A stretch of DNA of 64,000 bases from Candidatus Zixiibacteriota bacterium (GTDB lineage Bacteria; Zixibacteria; MSB-5A5; GN15; FEB-12), in NCBI GenBank assembly GCA_040756055.1, contig JBFLZR010000001.1:375849-439848 (forward strand), in the 5' to 3' direction. Shown one piece after another: positions 42,056-57,407 of the stretch. The first letter of the stretch is position 1, and each line of letters opens with the position of its first letter. Position numbers and translations under genes: made by a program. The notes beneath the pieces are model-generated. The model was given only the letters and a program-made list of their open reading frames with translations, was not told the origin of the DNA and made no database searches.

Positions 42056-42790
42056 ATTTGGGTTCGTTTCGTTATTTTTATGTTTTCGTGTGTCTTGATC
42101 TTTCGCTCATGGTAGTCCTTGTAGGTCGAAACCCCTGAGCACCATTCCCGCATCCGGCGGGAATGAGCGTGGTTTCGACATCTTTCTTATTCGCCAACTT
42201 CGTCAACCTTGAATAACGAACCCCAATCGCGACTGTAATATCCCCGCTCGAAATATTTGTGTATAGAACTCTGCGTCCAATCAAACGGATTTGTCGCCAA
42301 ACCGTGTTTAATCGGATTGTAGTGTATATAATCAATGTGACGATTCATGTCTGCTGTGTCTCTAATAACATGATCCCAATAACGGTTTTGCCAGACGCGC
42401 CCGCTGCCTGAACCAACACGTTTACGATAATAGCCCGAAAAGGACAATTTAAAGCGGCGGACCAGTAACGAGAGATCTTCCTTATCCGAGGATATCAGCA
42501 TGTGGATATGGTCGGGCAGTATGACCCACGCCGGCATCTCATATGATGACGTTTTGGAGGGTCTGTCGAATGCCAGCCACAAAAGATCAACGTGGTCCAG
42601 AAGAATCGGGGCACGTTTGTGCGTGACATGGGTCAGGAAATAGACATTGCCGTGATCGAAATATCGTCGAATGTTCGTCATTTCTTGTTCCCGGATGTCG
42701 AAACCTCTCCGCTACGCGGAGACTCTGACGAGCGGGGGTTTCGACCTACGAGATCCTCGTGTTGCTCGTGGCGACCCCGTCGGGACCCAG
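42056..42790. mobile_element. RAYT locus inside a composite intergenic repeat
   Basis: The left border is TTTGGGTTCGTTTCGTT from 42058, then TTGATCTTTCGCTCATGGTA, a module also present at 50331-50384 and 50820-50878. The transposase gene is flanked by REP arms: GTAGGTCGAAACCCC...GTGGTTTCGAC at about 42121-42180 on the left, and GTCGAAACC...GGGGTTTCGACCTAC at about 42698-42750 on the right. Inner palindromes include TTCCCGCATCCGGCGGGAA. Confidence 0.75.
42187..42681 (-). CDS. REP-associated tyrosine transposase (RAYT, HUH family)
   Basis: 164 residues, full length for a RAYT/Y1_Tnp protein. The HUH motif is H58-I-H60 (VILPDHIHMLI). The C-terminal family signature is VWQNRYWDHVIRDTADMNRH followed by IDYIHYNPIKHGLA. 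These relatives of IS200/IS605 TnpA are single-copy chromosomal genes that cut single-stranded REP hairpins and are thought to spread REP elements. All key residues seem intact. The neighbouring palindromes (GTCGAAACC family) are its likely substrates. TnpB is absent, as is normal for RAYTs. Confidence 0.92.
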   Translation of the reverse strand: MTNIRRYFDHGNVYFLTHVTHKRAPILLDHVDLLWLAFDRPSKTSSYEMPAWVILPDHIHMLISSDKEDLSLLVRRFKLSFSGYYRKRVGSGSGRVWQNRYWDHVIRDTADMNRHIDYIHYNPIKHGLATNPFDWTQSSIHKYFERGYYSRDWGSLFKVDEVGE

Positions 42791-48717: not shown

Positions 48718-48764
48718 GTGCGTCCGCGTCCAGCGCGGGGATATGCGCCAATTAATTCGGACCG

Positions 48765-49316
48765 TCAGTTCACATCGCCGACTTCGTCGGGCGACAGGAA
48801 CTGACGGAGCAGGGTATGGATGAGCCTGGATGTCGAAGCCTCCTTTGCAAGATGGAGGACCATTGCGGACCAGCCGTTGGGCGGATTGGGAAACAGGGGG
48901 TTTCGACCTGTCGGGTTTTGTCAGGTCCGAATCCAATTGCGTCGGGTCATGCGTTTGATAAATCAAACGCCTACGGATGCTCTCGAAGTGTTTTCCTTTG
49001 TCAGGCCCAAACGAGTTTGAGCCTGCCACCCGTCGGGACAAGCGCTGATAAAATCGAACCGTCAGTTCACATCGCCGACTTCGTCGGGCGACAGGAACTG
49101 ACGGAGCAGGGTATGGATGAGCCTGGATGTCGAAACCTCCTCCGCCGAGGGCGGAGACCCTTCCGGTCAGGAGATTTCGACCGATGGAGTTGTATCAGGT
49201 CCGAGATAAATCAAACGCCTACTATTCGGGGTCGGGTTGGTGTGGTGGCGGGTTCGAAGACGGACCCGCCCTACAGGAGACTGTACTCGAGGCGATGTCC
49301 GTTCCGATGTTGTCTG
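48765..49316. repeat. Repeat field with duplicated REP modules
   Basis: The hairpin CCGTCAGTT...AACTGACGG at 48772-48807 and the following sequence to TGTCGAA recur 287 bp later at 49059-49124 with almost no change. Each is followed by a GTCGAA-CCTCC element with a pairing TTTCGACC arm (48829-48912 and 49128-49181), the same family as the REP arms around the RAYT gene. TGATAAATCAAACGCCTAC occurs at about 48956-48974 and again at 49204-49220. No gene is credible here. Confidence 0.8.
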
Positions 49317-50215: not shown

Positions 50216-51075
50216 AAGACGGCGAAAATCCAGAAAAGTTTGGCTGTGATGACGGGGCAGTGGTATCAGTGGTTATGGCCGTTTGTTTTTTTCGGTATAT
50301 TTTCATGTTAGTGTTGTAGTTACGGTAATTTGGGTTCGTTTCGTTGTTTTCGTATTTCTCTCTGTTTTGATCTCTCGCTCATGGTTGGCTCACGCCGCGG
50401 CGTGAGCCTACCAATGCGGGATCCATTTGTGCATCGATGCGTTTGATAAATCAAACGCCTACGTATGCGCCAGGTGTATTTTTTGATGTCGGGCCCAAAC
50501 GAGTTTGAGCCTGCTACCCGGACGCGGTCATTCCGAGCGAAAGCCGGAATCCAGTAAGCAAGAACCGTCAAGGATTCTGCCGTAATGGTGTGTCCGTATT
50601 TTTCCGCGCAATCCTCTATCATTCATTTCATTATCCGTATTTGGGTTCGTTTCGTTCTTTTTGTGAAATGCCCTCACCCCGTCCCTCTCCCGGAGGGCGA
50701 GGGGGAAAGGGGCGTGAGGTCGCGTTTGATTAGATCGCCGTCAGGTGACATCCCCGAAACTTTCGGGGACAGCACCTGACGGAACAGGGGAATTCTCTAT
50801 CATCGATATTGTTAGCACGATTTGGGTTCGTTTCGTTGTTTTCGTATTTCTCTCTGTTTTGATCTCTTGCTCATGGTAGGCTCACGCCGCGGCGTGAGCC
50901 TACCAATGCGGGATCCATTTGTGCATCGATGCGTTTGATAAATGAAACGCCTACGGATGCGTCAGGTGTTTTTTTTATCAGGCCCAAACAAGTTTGAGCC
51001 TGCCACCCACCGTGTCGGAGTGACAGCAGGGTTGCGGGGTGGCAGGAGACTAAGAAGGCTCCTGCCCTACGTCAG
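50216..51075. repeat. Composite intergenic repeat field, two copies of a 190-bp element
   Basis: From 50331 to about 50525 and again from 50820 to about 51006 the same modules run in order: TTTGGGTTCGTTTCGTTGTT, GATCTC-T-CGCTCATGG, the perfect 22-bp palindrome at 50387-50408 and 50879-50900, GATCCATTTGTGCATCGATG, the GCGTTTGATAAAT region, and AGTTTGAGCCTGC. Between them, 50640-50800 carries CTCTCCCGGAGGGCGAGGGG and the hairpin CCGTCAGGT...ACCTGACGG (50731-50766). These modules also make up the 0.3-1.3 kb field, inverted. Confidence 0.88.
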
Positions 51076-52948: not shown

Positions 52949-53042
52949 ATGTAGTAAGCATCCCCATTGCCTAATTACCGGCAAACCTAACGAGTCGGGA
53001 CGGAATCTTGCTAAACAACAAGGTTTTATGCGAGGTAACGTC

Positions 53043-56009
53043 ATGAATGCGATTTATCACTGGTTAGTGGAGAGGACCGTCAGGTCACATTCTCGACTTT
53101 GTCGAGCGCAAGACCTGACGGAACGGGGAAGGGACCATGAGGGGCAGATGGGGACATCTGCCGCCCACGAGGAGACCGTCAGGTCACACCCTCGACTTCG
53201 TCGAGCGCAAGACCTGACGGAACGGGGAAAGGACGATGAGGGGCAGATGGGGACATCTGCCGCCCACGAGGAGACCGTCAGGTCACACCCTCGACTTCGT
53301 CGAGTGCAAGACCTGACGGAACGGGGAAGGGACGATGAGGGGCAGATGAAGACATCTGCCGCCCACGAGGAGACCGTCAGGTCACACCCTCGACTTCGTC
53401 GAGCGCAGGACCTGACGGAACAGGGAAGGGACCATGAGGGGCAGATGAGGACATCTGCCGCCCACGAGGAGACCGTCAGGTCACATTCTCGACTTTGTCG
53501 AGCGCAAGACCTGACGGAACGGAAGGGGTGTGTGTCATTTATGCTGGTGGCTGTTGCGGTCCTGCTGATGGCTGTGCCAGACGTGAGGGCGAAAGCGGTG
53601 AGTGGTCTGGTTGTCGATAGCGATGGCAAGCCTATCCCCGGCGTATCGGTGGTCACCGATGTGAGAGGCAGAGGGACAATCACAAATGATGACGGTGAAT
53701 ATGAGCTTACCGACGCGGAGCAGGTGACGCGCATTACTTTTTCTTCGGTGGGATATCAATCGGTTCAGTACAATATCGCCAGTCTGCCTGACACCGTAGC
53801 GCTCGAAGAGATGTATTACCGGGGGACGGATATTTTGGTGCGTTCGGACCGGGCGGAGCGGGGGATTACGCCGATAGCGTTTGAGGATTTTTCGAAAGAA
53901 GATATCAAGCGCGACTACACGGTGGGAGAATTTCCGCTGCTTTTGTCAACCACGCCGAATCTGTATTCGTATTCTGACGCGGGGTCATCGCTGGGGTACA
54001 GTTACACGAAGATTCGCGGGTTCGATGATAAACGGATCGTTACATATATCAACGGCGTGCCGCTCAACGATCCGGAGGACCAGGCGACCTATTTCGTGGA
54101 CCTTCCTGATTTCGCCGCCAACGTGTCTGATATTCAGGTTCAACGCGGGGTGGGCAATTCGCTGTATGGGGACGCGTCGTTCGGCGGTTCCATAAACATT
54201 GTCACCAACAGCTTCAGCCGGGAGCGCCAGACGACCATCACGGCGGGCTACGGCGAGTATATGTCGGACGGAGAGTCTGTCAGTGATGTTTACAAGCAGA
54301 GTATAGAATATGCGAGTGGTTTGATAGACGGCCGATGGTTGTTTTCGGGAAGATTCTCCAAACAGAAGACGGGCGGGTATCGCCATAACAGTTGGTACGA
54401 TGGCTGGGCGTATTATTTTTCGGTGTCCCGGCTGGATCCCCGAATGACGACAGAGATTCATGTTTACGGCGGGCCGATGCGGATGCATCTGGCGTACTAT
54501 GGAGTGTCGCGCGACGCGATAGCGCAGGATCGAAGGGTGAATCCGCTCACTTATGACAACGAGACGGATAATTTCAATCAACCGCACTATCAGCTTCACA
54601 ACACTTATCGTCTGACCGACAACGCCACTCTGTACAATACTCTGTACTATATCAGGGGGAAGGGTTACTACGAGCAGTATAAGGATGACCGGGATTATTG
54701 GGAGTACAATATTCCGACCGCTCTGACCAATATCGATCCCGACACCGGCGAGCCATATACGAGAGGGGATGTGGTGCGTCAGCAATGGGTCGAAAAGAAT
54801 CAGACGGGTTGGAACCCTCGATTGGATGTGACTCACAAGAAGGGGATGCACTCTGTCGGCGGGTCGTTTTACTATTTCGACTCGGATCATTGGGGTCAGG
54901 TGGTGTGGGCGCAGAACGTGAATGGCGCGCTGGATCCGCGGCATCGGTACTATCAGTACTACGGCAAGAAGTATGTTGCTTCGGTGTTCGCCGAGGAGTA
55001 TTACCGGTTGAGCGACAAACTCAGCGCTCAACTTACGGCTCAGTTGCGTTATCAGAAATATGATTTCGACCAGGACAGGATGGGGGCTTTTCAAGGGTTC
55101 GACTACAGCCTGGATTGGCTTTTCTTCTCGCCGCGAGCCGGCGTCACCTTTAGCCTTAACGAAAGACTGAGCCTGTTTGCAAATTTAGCGGTATCATCGC
55201 GCACGCCGACCGATGCCGATATTTACGACGCCAACGACCCGTATATTCTTCCATCGCTCGAAATAGAGTCAGTTCAGGTTGACGCGGGCGGTGATACGGT
55301 TTCATATGTGTTTGGCGATCCGACCTCGAAGAACGAACGGGTTTATAACTACGAGTTAGGAGGGCGGTATCAGGCGGACAGGTATGTTGTGGGTGTGAAT
55401 CTTTTCTGGATGGATTTTCGGGATGAGATTATTCCTTATGGAGGTATCAACGAGAATACCGGTCTTCCTGTCACCGTGAATGCCGATCGTTCGGTGCACG
55501 CGGGCGTGGAGCTGACAGCGACATATAAGCCGGTCGAGCAGTTTTCGCTGAGCGGCAATGGCGCCTACAATTATAATCGGATCAAGGATTACGTGACAGA
55601 GATCGATGGTTACAGAATCGATTTCAAGGACAAGACGATTCCGCTTTTCCCGGAGTACCTGGTTAATCTCATGGCCGACTATAATGACGATACCTGGCGG
55701 CTGACATATCATCTGAGACTGGTCGGCAGACAGTTCATGGAGCTGGCCAATATCGGGCAGTTATCGATTGCTCCCTATTCGGTGTCATCTCTGTCGGCCT
55801 CTTACCGTTTTGCCAATCTGGCCGGGATCGGTGATTTGACTCTACAGGCGCGAGTTGACAACCTGTTCGACAAAAAGTATGAATCGTCCGGCTATGGCGG
55901 CAATTACGCGTACGAGATTGACGATGAGGTGCTGGTTGATGGCTGGGCGGAGTATTTCGTGGCGGCGGAGCGTTCTTTTTATGGACAGGTTGTTCTGGAG
56001 ATGTTTTAG
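53043..56009 (+). CDS. TonB-dependent receptor under TPP control, split by a repeat array
   Basis: 988 residues if translation starts at ATG 53043 (GAGG upstream). Residues 1-11 (MNAIYHWLVER) look like the charged n-region of a signal peptide. The hydrophobic core (CVSFMLVAVAVLLMAVPDVRA) appears only after a 33-residue repeat block occupying about 12-160. After it come a CarboxypepD-reg-like domain (VSGLVVDSDGKPIPGVSVVTD), a plug (SYTKIRGFDDKRIVTYINGV, NSLYGDASFGGSINIVTNSF) and a barrel. A GTG at 53532 or ATG at 53541, with GGAAGGGG just upstream, would give a normal signal peptide. It probably imports thiamine or a precursor. Whether the full-length form is exported is doubtful. Confidence 0.85.
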   Translation: MNAIYHWLVERTVRSHSRLCRAQDLTERGRDHEGQMGTSAAHEETVRSHPRLRRAQDLTERGKDDEGQMGTSAAHEETVRSHPRLRRVQDLTERGRDDEGQMKTSAAHEETVRSHPRLRRAQDLTEQGRDHEGQMRTSAAHEETVRSHSRLCRAQDLTERKGCVSFMLVAVAVLLMAVPDVRAKAVSGLVVDSDGKPIPGVSVVTDVRGRGTITNDDGEYELTDAEQVTRITFSSVGYQSVQYNIASLPDTVALEEMYYRGTDILVRSDRAERGITPIAFEDFSKEDIKRDYTVGEFPLLLSTTPNLYSYSDAGSSLGYSYTKIRGFDDKRIVTYINGVPLNDPEDQATYFVDLPDFAANVSDIQVQRGVGNSLYGDASFGGSINIVTNSFSRERQTTITAGYGEYMSDGESVSDVYKQSIEYASGLIDGRWLFSGRFSKQKTGGYRHNSWYDGWAYYFSVSRLDPRMTTEIHVYGGPMRMHLAYYGVSRDAIAQDRRVNPLTYDNETDNFNQPHYQLHNTYRLTDNATLYNTLYYIRGKGYYEQYKDDRDYWEYNIPTALTNIDPDTGEPYTRGDVVRQQWVEKNQTGWNPRLDVTHKKGMHSVGGSFYYFDSDHWGQVVWAQNVNGALDPRHRYYQYYGKKYVASVFAEEYYRLSDKLSAQLTAQLRYQKYDFDQDRMGAFQGFDYSLDWLFFSPRAGVTFSLNERLSLFANLAVSSRTPTDADIYDANDPYILPSLEIESVQVDAGGDTVSYVFGDPTSKNERVYNYELGGRYQADRYVVGVNLFWMDFRDEIIPYGGINENTGLPVTVNADRSVHAGVELTATYKPVEQFSLSGNGAYNYNRIKDYVTEIDGYRIDFKDKTIPLFPEYLVNLMADYNDDTWRLTYHLRLVGRQFMELANIGQLSIAPYSVSSLSASYRFANLAGIGDLTLQARVDNLFDKKYESSGYGGNYAYEIDDEVLVDGWAEYFVAAERSFYGQVVLEMF
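53076..53520. repeat. 99-bp (33-codon) tandem array in the receptor start
   Basis: The string ACCGTCAGGTCACA recurs at 53076, 53175, 53274, 53373 and 53472, every 99 bp exactly, giving four full units and one partial. Each unit contains the palindrome CCGTCAGGTC...GACCTGACGG, enclosing CTCGAC-TT-GTCGAG, and then GGCAGATG...CATCTGCC. The palindrome family is that of the intergenic repeats at 48772, 49059 and 50731. Units have scattered substitutions but all stay open in the receptor frame. The first and fifth copies share the TTCTCGACTTTGTCGAG variant. Confidence 0.95.
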
Positions 56010-56015
56010 TCAAGC

Positions 56016-57407
56016 ATGCACCTTGTTGATTATCTGCTCATAGTCGTCTATCTGGCGGCGCTGTTGATACTGGGATTCACTCGCCGGCTGAGAGCTGACA
56101 GTTCGGCCAGTGATCTTATTGTCGGCGGCCGGGTTTTGACTCTGCCGGCGTTTGTGGCCAGCCTGGTGTCGACATGGTATGGGGGGATACTGGGCGTCGG
56201 CGAATACAGTTACCGGTTCGGGCTTTCCAACTGGCTGGTGTTCGGGTTGCCTTATTATGTGGCGGCGTTTTTGTTCGCCATGTTTCTCGCGCGGCGCGCC
56301 CGCCAGAGTAAACTTCTGACAATCCCCGATCGTCTGGCGCAGGCGTATGATAACAAGACGGCGGTGGCGGGGTCGATCATAATATATTTTATGACGGTCC
56401 CCGCGGCGTACATATTGATGATCGGCACGCTGTGTCAGTATCTGTTCGGGTGGCCGTTCTGGGTGGGGGTGCTGTGCGGAACGTCATTTTCTGTCGTCTA
56501 CGTATATTTCGGCGGGTTTAACTCGGTGGTGCGGACAGATCTTTTTCAGTTCGCGTTGATGTTTCTCGGATTCCTGTTGATGCTGGTGGTGCTCGCAAGC
56601 GAGTACGGAGGGATCGAATTTCTTCGCGCGAATGTACCGGCTGTTAATTTCACGTGGCACGGCGGCAATCCGGGGATGTATATCGCCATCTGGTATTTTA
56701 TTGCACTGGCAACCCTTATAGAGCCCACATTTTATCAGCGGTGCTATGCGGCCAAAAACATGAATGTCGCGCGTACGGGGATTCTGGTATCGATAGGCTG
56801 CTGGGCGTTTTTTGATTTTCTGACGACCTCTTGCGGGTTGTATGCCCGGGCAATTCTGCCCGACCTGGCCAGCCCGGTAGGCTCATATCCGGCTCTGGGG
56901 TTGAAGGTGCTTCCGGTGGGTCTGCTGGGGTTGTTTGCCCTGGCTCTGCTGGCTACGGTCATGTCGACAATCGATTCATATTCATTCGTAGCCGCTTCTA
57001 CTTTCAGCCGGGATATAGTAATGCGCCTGTTTCGGGTGAGAGAGAACAGGGTCACTTATTTCACGCGGTTGGGTCTGGTCGTAACGGTTGTCATAGCGGT
57101 GGTGATTGTTTTGTTTTTCCGGTCGGTGGTGGATATCTGGCATATTTTTGGTTCGGTTGGGACGCCGGCTCTGCTGGTGCCGGTGTTTTTCTCTTTTGTC
57201 GGCAAGCGACGGTTGCCCTCGCGATGGGCATTTGTATCGGTGGTATTTTCGGGGATGCTGTCGCTGGCGTGGTATCTCTCGCGGTACAGCGGGGCTGACG
57301 GCGTCTACTGGCTGGGGGTGGAACCTATTTTCCCGGGCCTTGTTGTGTCTGTTTTGATATTCGTGATGTTTGGCCGGCGGTCGGCGGACAAGGCGGTTGC
57401 AAAATAA
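56016..57407 (+). CDS. Sodium:solute symporter (SSS family), thiamine-linked
   Basis: 463 residues with 12-13 membrane spans and SSS signature-like blocks (SDLIVGGRVLTLPAFVASLVS, GEYSYRFGLSNW, DSYSFVAASTFSRDI). It starts 6 bp after the riboswitch-controlled receptor, so it shares that transcript. An SSS-type transporter under thi-box control was predicted earlier in other bacteria (named ThiV); this one fits that role by context. I infer uptake of thiamine or a pyrimidine/thiazole precursor across the inner membrane. The ligand is not proven by sequence. Confidence 0.85.
   Translation: MHLVDYLLIVVYLAALLILGFTRRLRADSSASDLIVGGRVLTLPAFVASLVSTWYGGILGVGEYSYRFGLSNWLVFGLPYYVAAFLFAMFLARRARQSKLLTIPDRLAQAYDNKTAVAGSIIIYFMTVPAAYILMIGTLCQYLFGWPFWVGVLCGTSFSVVYVYFGGFNSVVRTDLFQFALMFLGFLLMLVVLASEYGGIEFLRANVPAVNFTWHGGNPGMYIAIWYFIALATLIEPTFYQRCYAAKNMNVARTGILVSIGCWAFFDFLTTSCGLYARAILPDLASPVGSYPALGLKVLPVGLLGLFALALLATVMSTIDSYSFVAASTFSRDIVMRLFRVRENRVTYFTRLGLVVTVVIAVVIVLFFRSVVDIWHIFGSVGTPALLVPVFFSFVGKRRLPSRWAFVSVVFSGMLSLAWYLSRYSGADGVYWLGVEPIFPGLVVSVLIFVMFGRRSADKAVAK

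Follow-up and report, generated by a model that had tools for sequence, protein, structure and literature searches.

In-frame palindromic repeats within the probable signal-peptide n-region of a TonB-dependent receptor gene of Zixibacteria

Introduction

How can the gene of an exported receptor carry a tandem array of stable palindromes between its start and the hydrophobic core of the signal peptide? This question is raised by a TonB-dependent receptor gene (53043-56009, plus strand) located in the window, i.e., the whole stretch of 64,000 nucleotides of a Zixibacteria genome that was analyzed here.

The presence of in-frame palindromes in Rickettsia, and of REPs inside genes that include error-prone polymerase genes, was already known. 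The Rickettsia palindromic elements (RPE; Ogata 2000, 2002) are described in PMC10969869 and PMC2229807 as in-frame palindromes of protein genes. A survey of intragenic REPs of the GTAG/CGTC super-families included error-prone polymerase genes and N-termini, found that the larger intragenic clusters encode 43-82 residues, and considered most of the N-terminal cases to be probably misannotated starts (PMC3733652). We have not found the phenomenon described here in the open-licence papers on Zixibacteria repeats or on tandem repeats within a signal peptide. What sets this case apart is its place in a signal-peptide n-region, its recurrence there, its size and the evidence on the start site.

Results

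Structure of the array

The array extends from 53075 to 53522 on the plus strand, with the sequence MNAIYHWLVER on one side and the hydrophobic signal-peptide core of the receptor on the other. TRF assigned to it a period of 99, with 4.5 copies, 94% matches and zero indels, and a repeat finder also gave a spacing of exactly 99 bp. The array is formed by five 45-nt palindromes A and four 20-nt palindromes B in the order A-B-A-B-A-B-A-B-A, i.e., A(BA)x4. The A copies were located at 53077-53121 (copy 1), 53176-53220 (copy 2), 53275-53319 (copy 3), 53374-53418 (copy 4) and 53473-53517 (copy 5). The B copies, which are REP-type hairpins, are placed at 53143-53162 (with an in-frame ATG at 53148 within the stem), 53242-53261, 53341-53360 and 53440-53459, all of them on the plus strand. 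A previous sequence-only reading had described five open palindromes at this exact spacing and in this location, and TRF, the repeat finder and a frame check bear this out; its proposal of one palindrome per unit holds for A and overlooked B, which is also part of each repeat. It had likewise noticed that the first and last copies are alike, and indeed A copies 1 and 5 are T-T-T variants with three substitutions in common (53090, 53091, 53100 and equivalents).

Two of the six frames are open across the array, namely the receptor frame on the plus strand and one frame on the minus strand. A 225-aa minus-strand ORF that crosses the array was rejected as a gene, since it mirrors the open frame of the palindromes. 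Folding gave -26 kcal/mol for each palindrome A (z about -6 relative to shuffled sequences) and -16.4 kcal/mol for palindrome B (z -4.5). The array and the stability of its hairpins are far above chance expectation.

The units differ from each other at ten positions. Eight of these differences alter the encoded residue, and none of the ten touches the 48 bases that form the stems of a unit (p 0.0008), indicating that the hairpins are conserved and the peptide sequence is not. Selection on the array peptide was rejected, given that only two of the ten differences are synonymous. The conservation of the stems may come either from recent amplification, from palindrome-templated repair or from selection on structure. 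The last of these would fit a recruited array, in which the hairpins or the length of the n-region tune the amount or the export of the receptor and the number of units gives graded cell-to-cell variation, an explanation compatible with translation through the array. The very stable fold (z -6.8), the sparing of the stems and the recurrence of expansions at one site of one gene speak for it; however, the other two processes can also explain the stems, most orthologues manage without the array, and a unit of 33 codons excludes a frame-based on/off control. Recruitment is rather improbable. On/off phase variation by whole units, as proposed earlier, cannot act through the frame by the same arithmetic: 99 bp correspond to 33 codons inside the ORF, and thus, the gain or loss of whole units keeps the frame.

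The species that contains the array is represented by a single assembly, and hence the number of copies may reflect a compromise of the assembly. Tandem repeats are difficult to assemble, but it is highly improbable that the array itself is an assembly artefact or a misjoined repeat, because its units are not identical, it is bordered, as expected, by the riboswitch and the receptor, arranged as in the orthologues, and comparable inserts with other sequence exist in two other genomes (G016 and G017).

The start site

The receptor gene, whose limits were set by its ORF, its Pfam domains (TonB_dep_Rec_b-barrel, Plug and CarbopepD_reg_2) and a start motif conserved in 47 orthologues that points to ATG 53043 as the ancestral start, adjoins a sodium:solute symporter gene (56016-57407, plus strand; Pfam SSF 1.4e-31) that is likely part of the same operon. 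A TPP riboswitch aptamer controlling the receptor (RF00059; 52863-52958, plus strand) was detected upstream by cmscan with 74.4 bits against a gathering threshold of 54.3, and a TPP riboswitch also precedes the receptor in 19 of the 20 orthologous loci searched. It is followed by an expression-platform hairpin (52999-53042, plus strand; MFE fold of -16.4 kcal/mol) that is predicted to sequester the Shine-Dalgarno (SD) sequence GAGG (53032-53035). Since this SD-pairing hairpin abuts ATG 53043, this codon is likely the riboswitch-controlled translation start. Most of the motif-bearing orthologues are predicted to form this hairpin too. Within the 60 nt that precede the start, the SD was fully paired in 30 of 47, versus 25% of the shuffled controls.

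One of the dispersed palindromes of G017 has a copy (L021:141-166) in the apical loop of the SD-sequestering hairpin, suggesting that this loop is another site able to take up an insert with little damage. The SD-hairpin loops of G050 (L126) and G016 are long as well.

Sequence and orthologue comparison placed the hydrophobic core of the signal peptide, together with its c-region, at 53541-53591 (plus strand; MLVAVAVLLMAVPDVRA), and cleavage is likely to occur before KA. The full-length reading puts ...LTERKGCVSF, with its R and K, just ahead of the core, whereas a start at GTG 53532 or ATG 53541 leaves only MSF or M before it, with zero positive charge.

The array could alternatively be a structured 5' leader, with the functional start at ATG 53445, GTG 53532 or ATG 53541 and an incidental open frame upstream. 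As a counterpoint to translation from ATG 53043, there are several in-frame ATG/GTG codons with SD-like sequences inside the array and at GTG 53532: every B copy carries an SD-like GAGG 5 nt ahead of an in-frame ATG, and GGAAGGGG is found upstream of GTG 53532. In addition, N-terminal REPs of other species were mostly judged non-coding (PMC3733652). Nevertheless, the SD sequestered by the riboswitch is that of ATG 53043, the ATGs of the B copies are buried in a stable stem, and the starts at 53532 and 53541 yield an uncharged n-region. The conserved, riboswitch-sequestered SD and the lack of charge in the short forms thus disfavour the restart at GTG 53532 or ATG 53541 that had been suggested from the sequence.

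Orthologues and recurrent expansions

We have surveyed 80 genomes of the order, 71 of which contain the receptor, and the comparison of starts was limited to the 47 orthologues that keep a recognisable SD-ATG motif. In all 47, the eight expanded ones included, the conserved start is in frame and open. In 39 of them, 18-28 codons separate the start from the mature domain; in the other eight, the distance is 39, 48, 51, 61, 77, 105, 137 and 182 codons, the last being the receptor of the window. Most orthologues have no array, in accordance with the earlier proposal that the gene start was invaded.

The extensions of G016 (137 codons) and G017 (105 codons) are both in frame and are mostly built from palindromes dispersed in the respective genome, with inserts that match 32 and 54 other places, respectively (33 and 55 including themselves). 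In G016, the stretch from the ancestral ATG up to the hydrophobic core is free of further ATG, GTG and TTG codons. This case, together with the frame conservation in 47 of 47 orthologues, argues against the leader explanation, which we regard as unlikely. It also argues against the earlier expectation that 150 additional residues should block Sec export, because these intact orthologues span 105 and 137 codons up to the mature domain and one of them offers no alternative start codon.

The 77-codon case of G006 was different: a repeat origin of its extension was sought in its own genome and the sole match was the extension itself. The idea that every long n-region is a REP insertion was rejected on this basis. 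Long in-frame n-regions of the same receptor are found in L025, L131 and L139 (G006, G066 and G064), all from one genus.

The inserts made of repeats belong to three genera (the window, G016 and G017) and differ in sequence, and for this reason, they are read as independent events, while one older insertion common to the three genera retains a small residual probability. The presence of different hairpins at the same spot in other genera of the family suggests that the signal peptide tolerates insertions. In all three genes, the first hairpin starts about 24-32 nt past the ATG, i.e., beyond the initiating ribosome. The open frames of the three inserts are 2/6, 3/6 and 2/6, and the chance that three unconstrained inserts were all in frame and stop-free is about 0.002, a rough value obtained from the open frames with a factor of 1/3 each for length. 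Inserts located upstream of the true start would have no constraint on frame, and thus, the in-frame inserts favour translation through them.

Dispersed origin of the palindromes

Both A and B are dispersed in the genome of the window and are mostly intergenic, which agrees with the earlier proposal that an intergenic palindrome invaded the gene start and was amplified in tandem. There are 39 copies of B, searched as GGCAGATGNNNNCATCTGCC allowing one mismatch, and none of the reversed control pattern. B copies flank on either side a REP-associated tyrosine transposase gene (C1:373234-373842; L096:3435-4043), identified by NF047646 with 98.4 bits against a cut-off of 80, and a second Y1 transposase gene (C5:153793-154101; L197). 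All 23 B copies that were read carry a one-sided tail beside the stem, usually GCNCAC and occasionally GGNCAC, in place of the unpaired GTAG tag; apart from this tag, B fits a REP-type element. No transposase partner was found for A. Its CGTC is within a 10-bp outer stem, with an inner stem of 6 bp, instead of the unpaired CGTC, stem of 8-9 bp and loop of 4-5 of the CGTC-tagged REPs. Consequently, the term 'REP-derived' used in the sequence-only reading is appropriate for B, with its 39 copies, its one-sided tail and its position beside REP-associated tyrosine transposase genes.

Further A palindromes are located upstream of the receptor (48760-48820, 49058-49117 and 50738-50792), at least two of them intergenic. 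The window also contains a match to a Y1 transposase (42322-42630, minus strand), with no full A or B copy adjoining it, and an unrelated tandem repeat of 170 bp at 727-1105 (2.2 copies, 87% matches).

Palindromes inside other genes

In the genome of the window, a DNA polymerase Y-family gene (L111:437-2098; G000:C6, minus strand) contains about five tandem B copies in its linker, in frame and read as QMGTSAGHK and variants. The orthologue of G002 (L200) has B-like copies in frame, and that of G003 is devoid of them. In G016, a palindrome (L190:842-927) adds about 29 residues, in frame, to a loop of a Crp/Fnr-type regulator, and it is missing in the seven relatives aligned. In-frame insertion is thus found in the receptor (three genera), the pol Y linker (G000, G002) and the Crp/Fnr loop (G016), a behaviour like that of the Rickettsia palindromic elements. 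The in-frame copies in these other genes speak for translation through the array. To judge from their intact ORFs, these unrelated genes are presumably functional.

An ArsF-family gene (L098:568-1239; G000:C1, minus strand) has a B copy just upstream of its start, with an open frame across B. It was rejected as a second signal-peptide case, given that its SD and ATG are downstream of B. Most of the other in-frame palindrome overlaps were not counted because they are close to possibly misannotated starts.

Discussion

From the array, the dispersed origin of its palindromes, the conserved start with its hairpin, the conservation of the frame and the recurrence across genera, all of them read in the DNA, we infer the actual use of the start, the export, the cleavage and the neutrality of the extension. 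Translation would probably proceed from ATG 53043 through the array, with signal peptidase removing the extension and leaving the mature receptor unchanged. REP-type mobile hairpins may have landed in the few codons that separate the start region from the hydrophobic core, and the A-B unit of 99 bp would then have been amplified in tandem. Since each unit provides 33 open codons, the ribosome would read across the array, which would represent a lengthening of roughly 150 residues of the signal-peptide n-region. Export would be driven by the hydrophobic core, which is itself unchanged and closely preceded by R and K, and signal peptidase would cut off the whole extension, so that the mature receptor would not be affected. 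The n-region would, in this way, tolerate mobile hairpins that land in it in frame. As a counterpoint to this explanation, its length of about 160 residues greatly exceeds that of the long bacterial signal sequences that have been reviewed (examples of 42-56 residues; PMC2805444).

The elements found here resemble the RPE, which are likewise short palindromes, dispersed over the genome and located in frame in unrelated protein genes without disrupting them. They differ in the phylum, in the tandem 99-bp A-B units, in the length of about 150 residues, in the location in a signal peptide and in the link of B to a transposase gene. The resemblance is one of behaviour, which is what was compared: they work like RPE, which does not make them RPE. 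The intragenic REPs (PMC3733652) also share with our case the presence of hairpins in ORFs, error-prone polymerase genes and N-termini among them, and the RAYT-flanked copies. Unlike GTAG REPs, B has a fixed tail, mostly GCNCAC (GTGNGC on the opposite strand), and unlike the published N-terminal REPs, the start-site evidence favours here a coding role for about 150 residues.

The extended signal peptides of autotransporters, with an extension of about 25 residues, also present a long n-region before an ordinary core that is removed on export, as we propose here, but the extension of the receptor is non-conserved, encoded by repeats and about 150 residues long (PMC2805444). The OMthi of Bacteroides, an outer-membrane thiamine transporter controlled by a TPP riboswitch, is likewise a TonB-dependent receptor downstream of such a riboswitch, although our receptor, with a putative role in thiamine, belongs to a different phylum and has an SSF symporter as neighbour (PMC5613172).

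In the REP literature, N-terminal REPs are mostly taken for misannotated starts. The riboswitch-controlled start, the conservation of the frame in 47 orthologues and the case of G016 without alternative starts constitute independent evidence for translation. The locus is also a natural test of the maximum length of the n-region of a Sec signal peptide. More tentatively, and with less than even confidence, n-regions might generally offer a safe harbour in this phylum to mobile palindromes inserted in frame, translated and then discarded, where only the frame is under selection and where repeated, independent invasion and amplification would leave the mature protein unchanged. The array would also reveal a hiding place of selfish hairpins within a gene.
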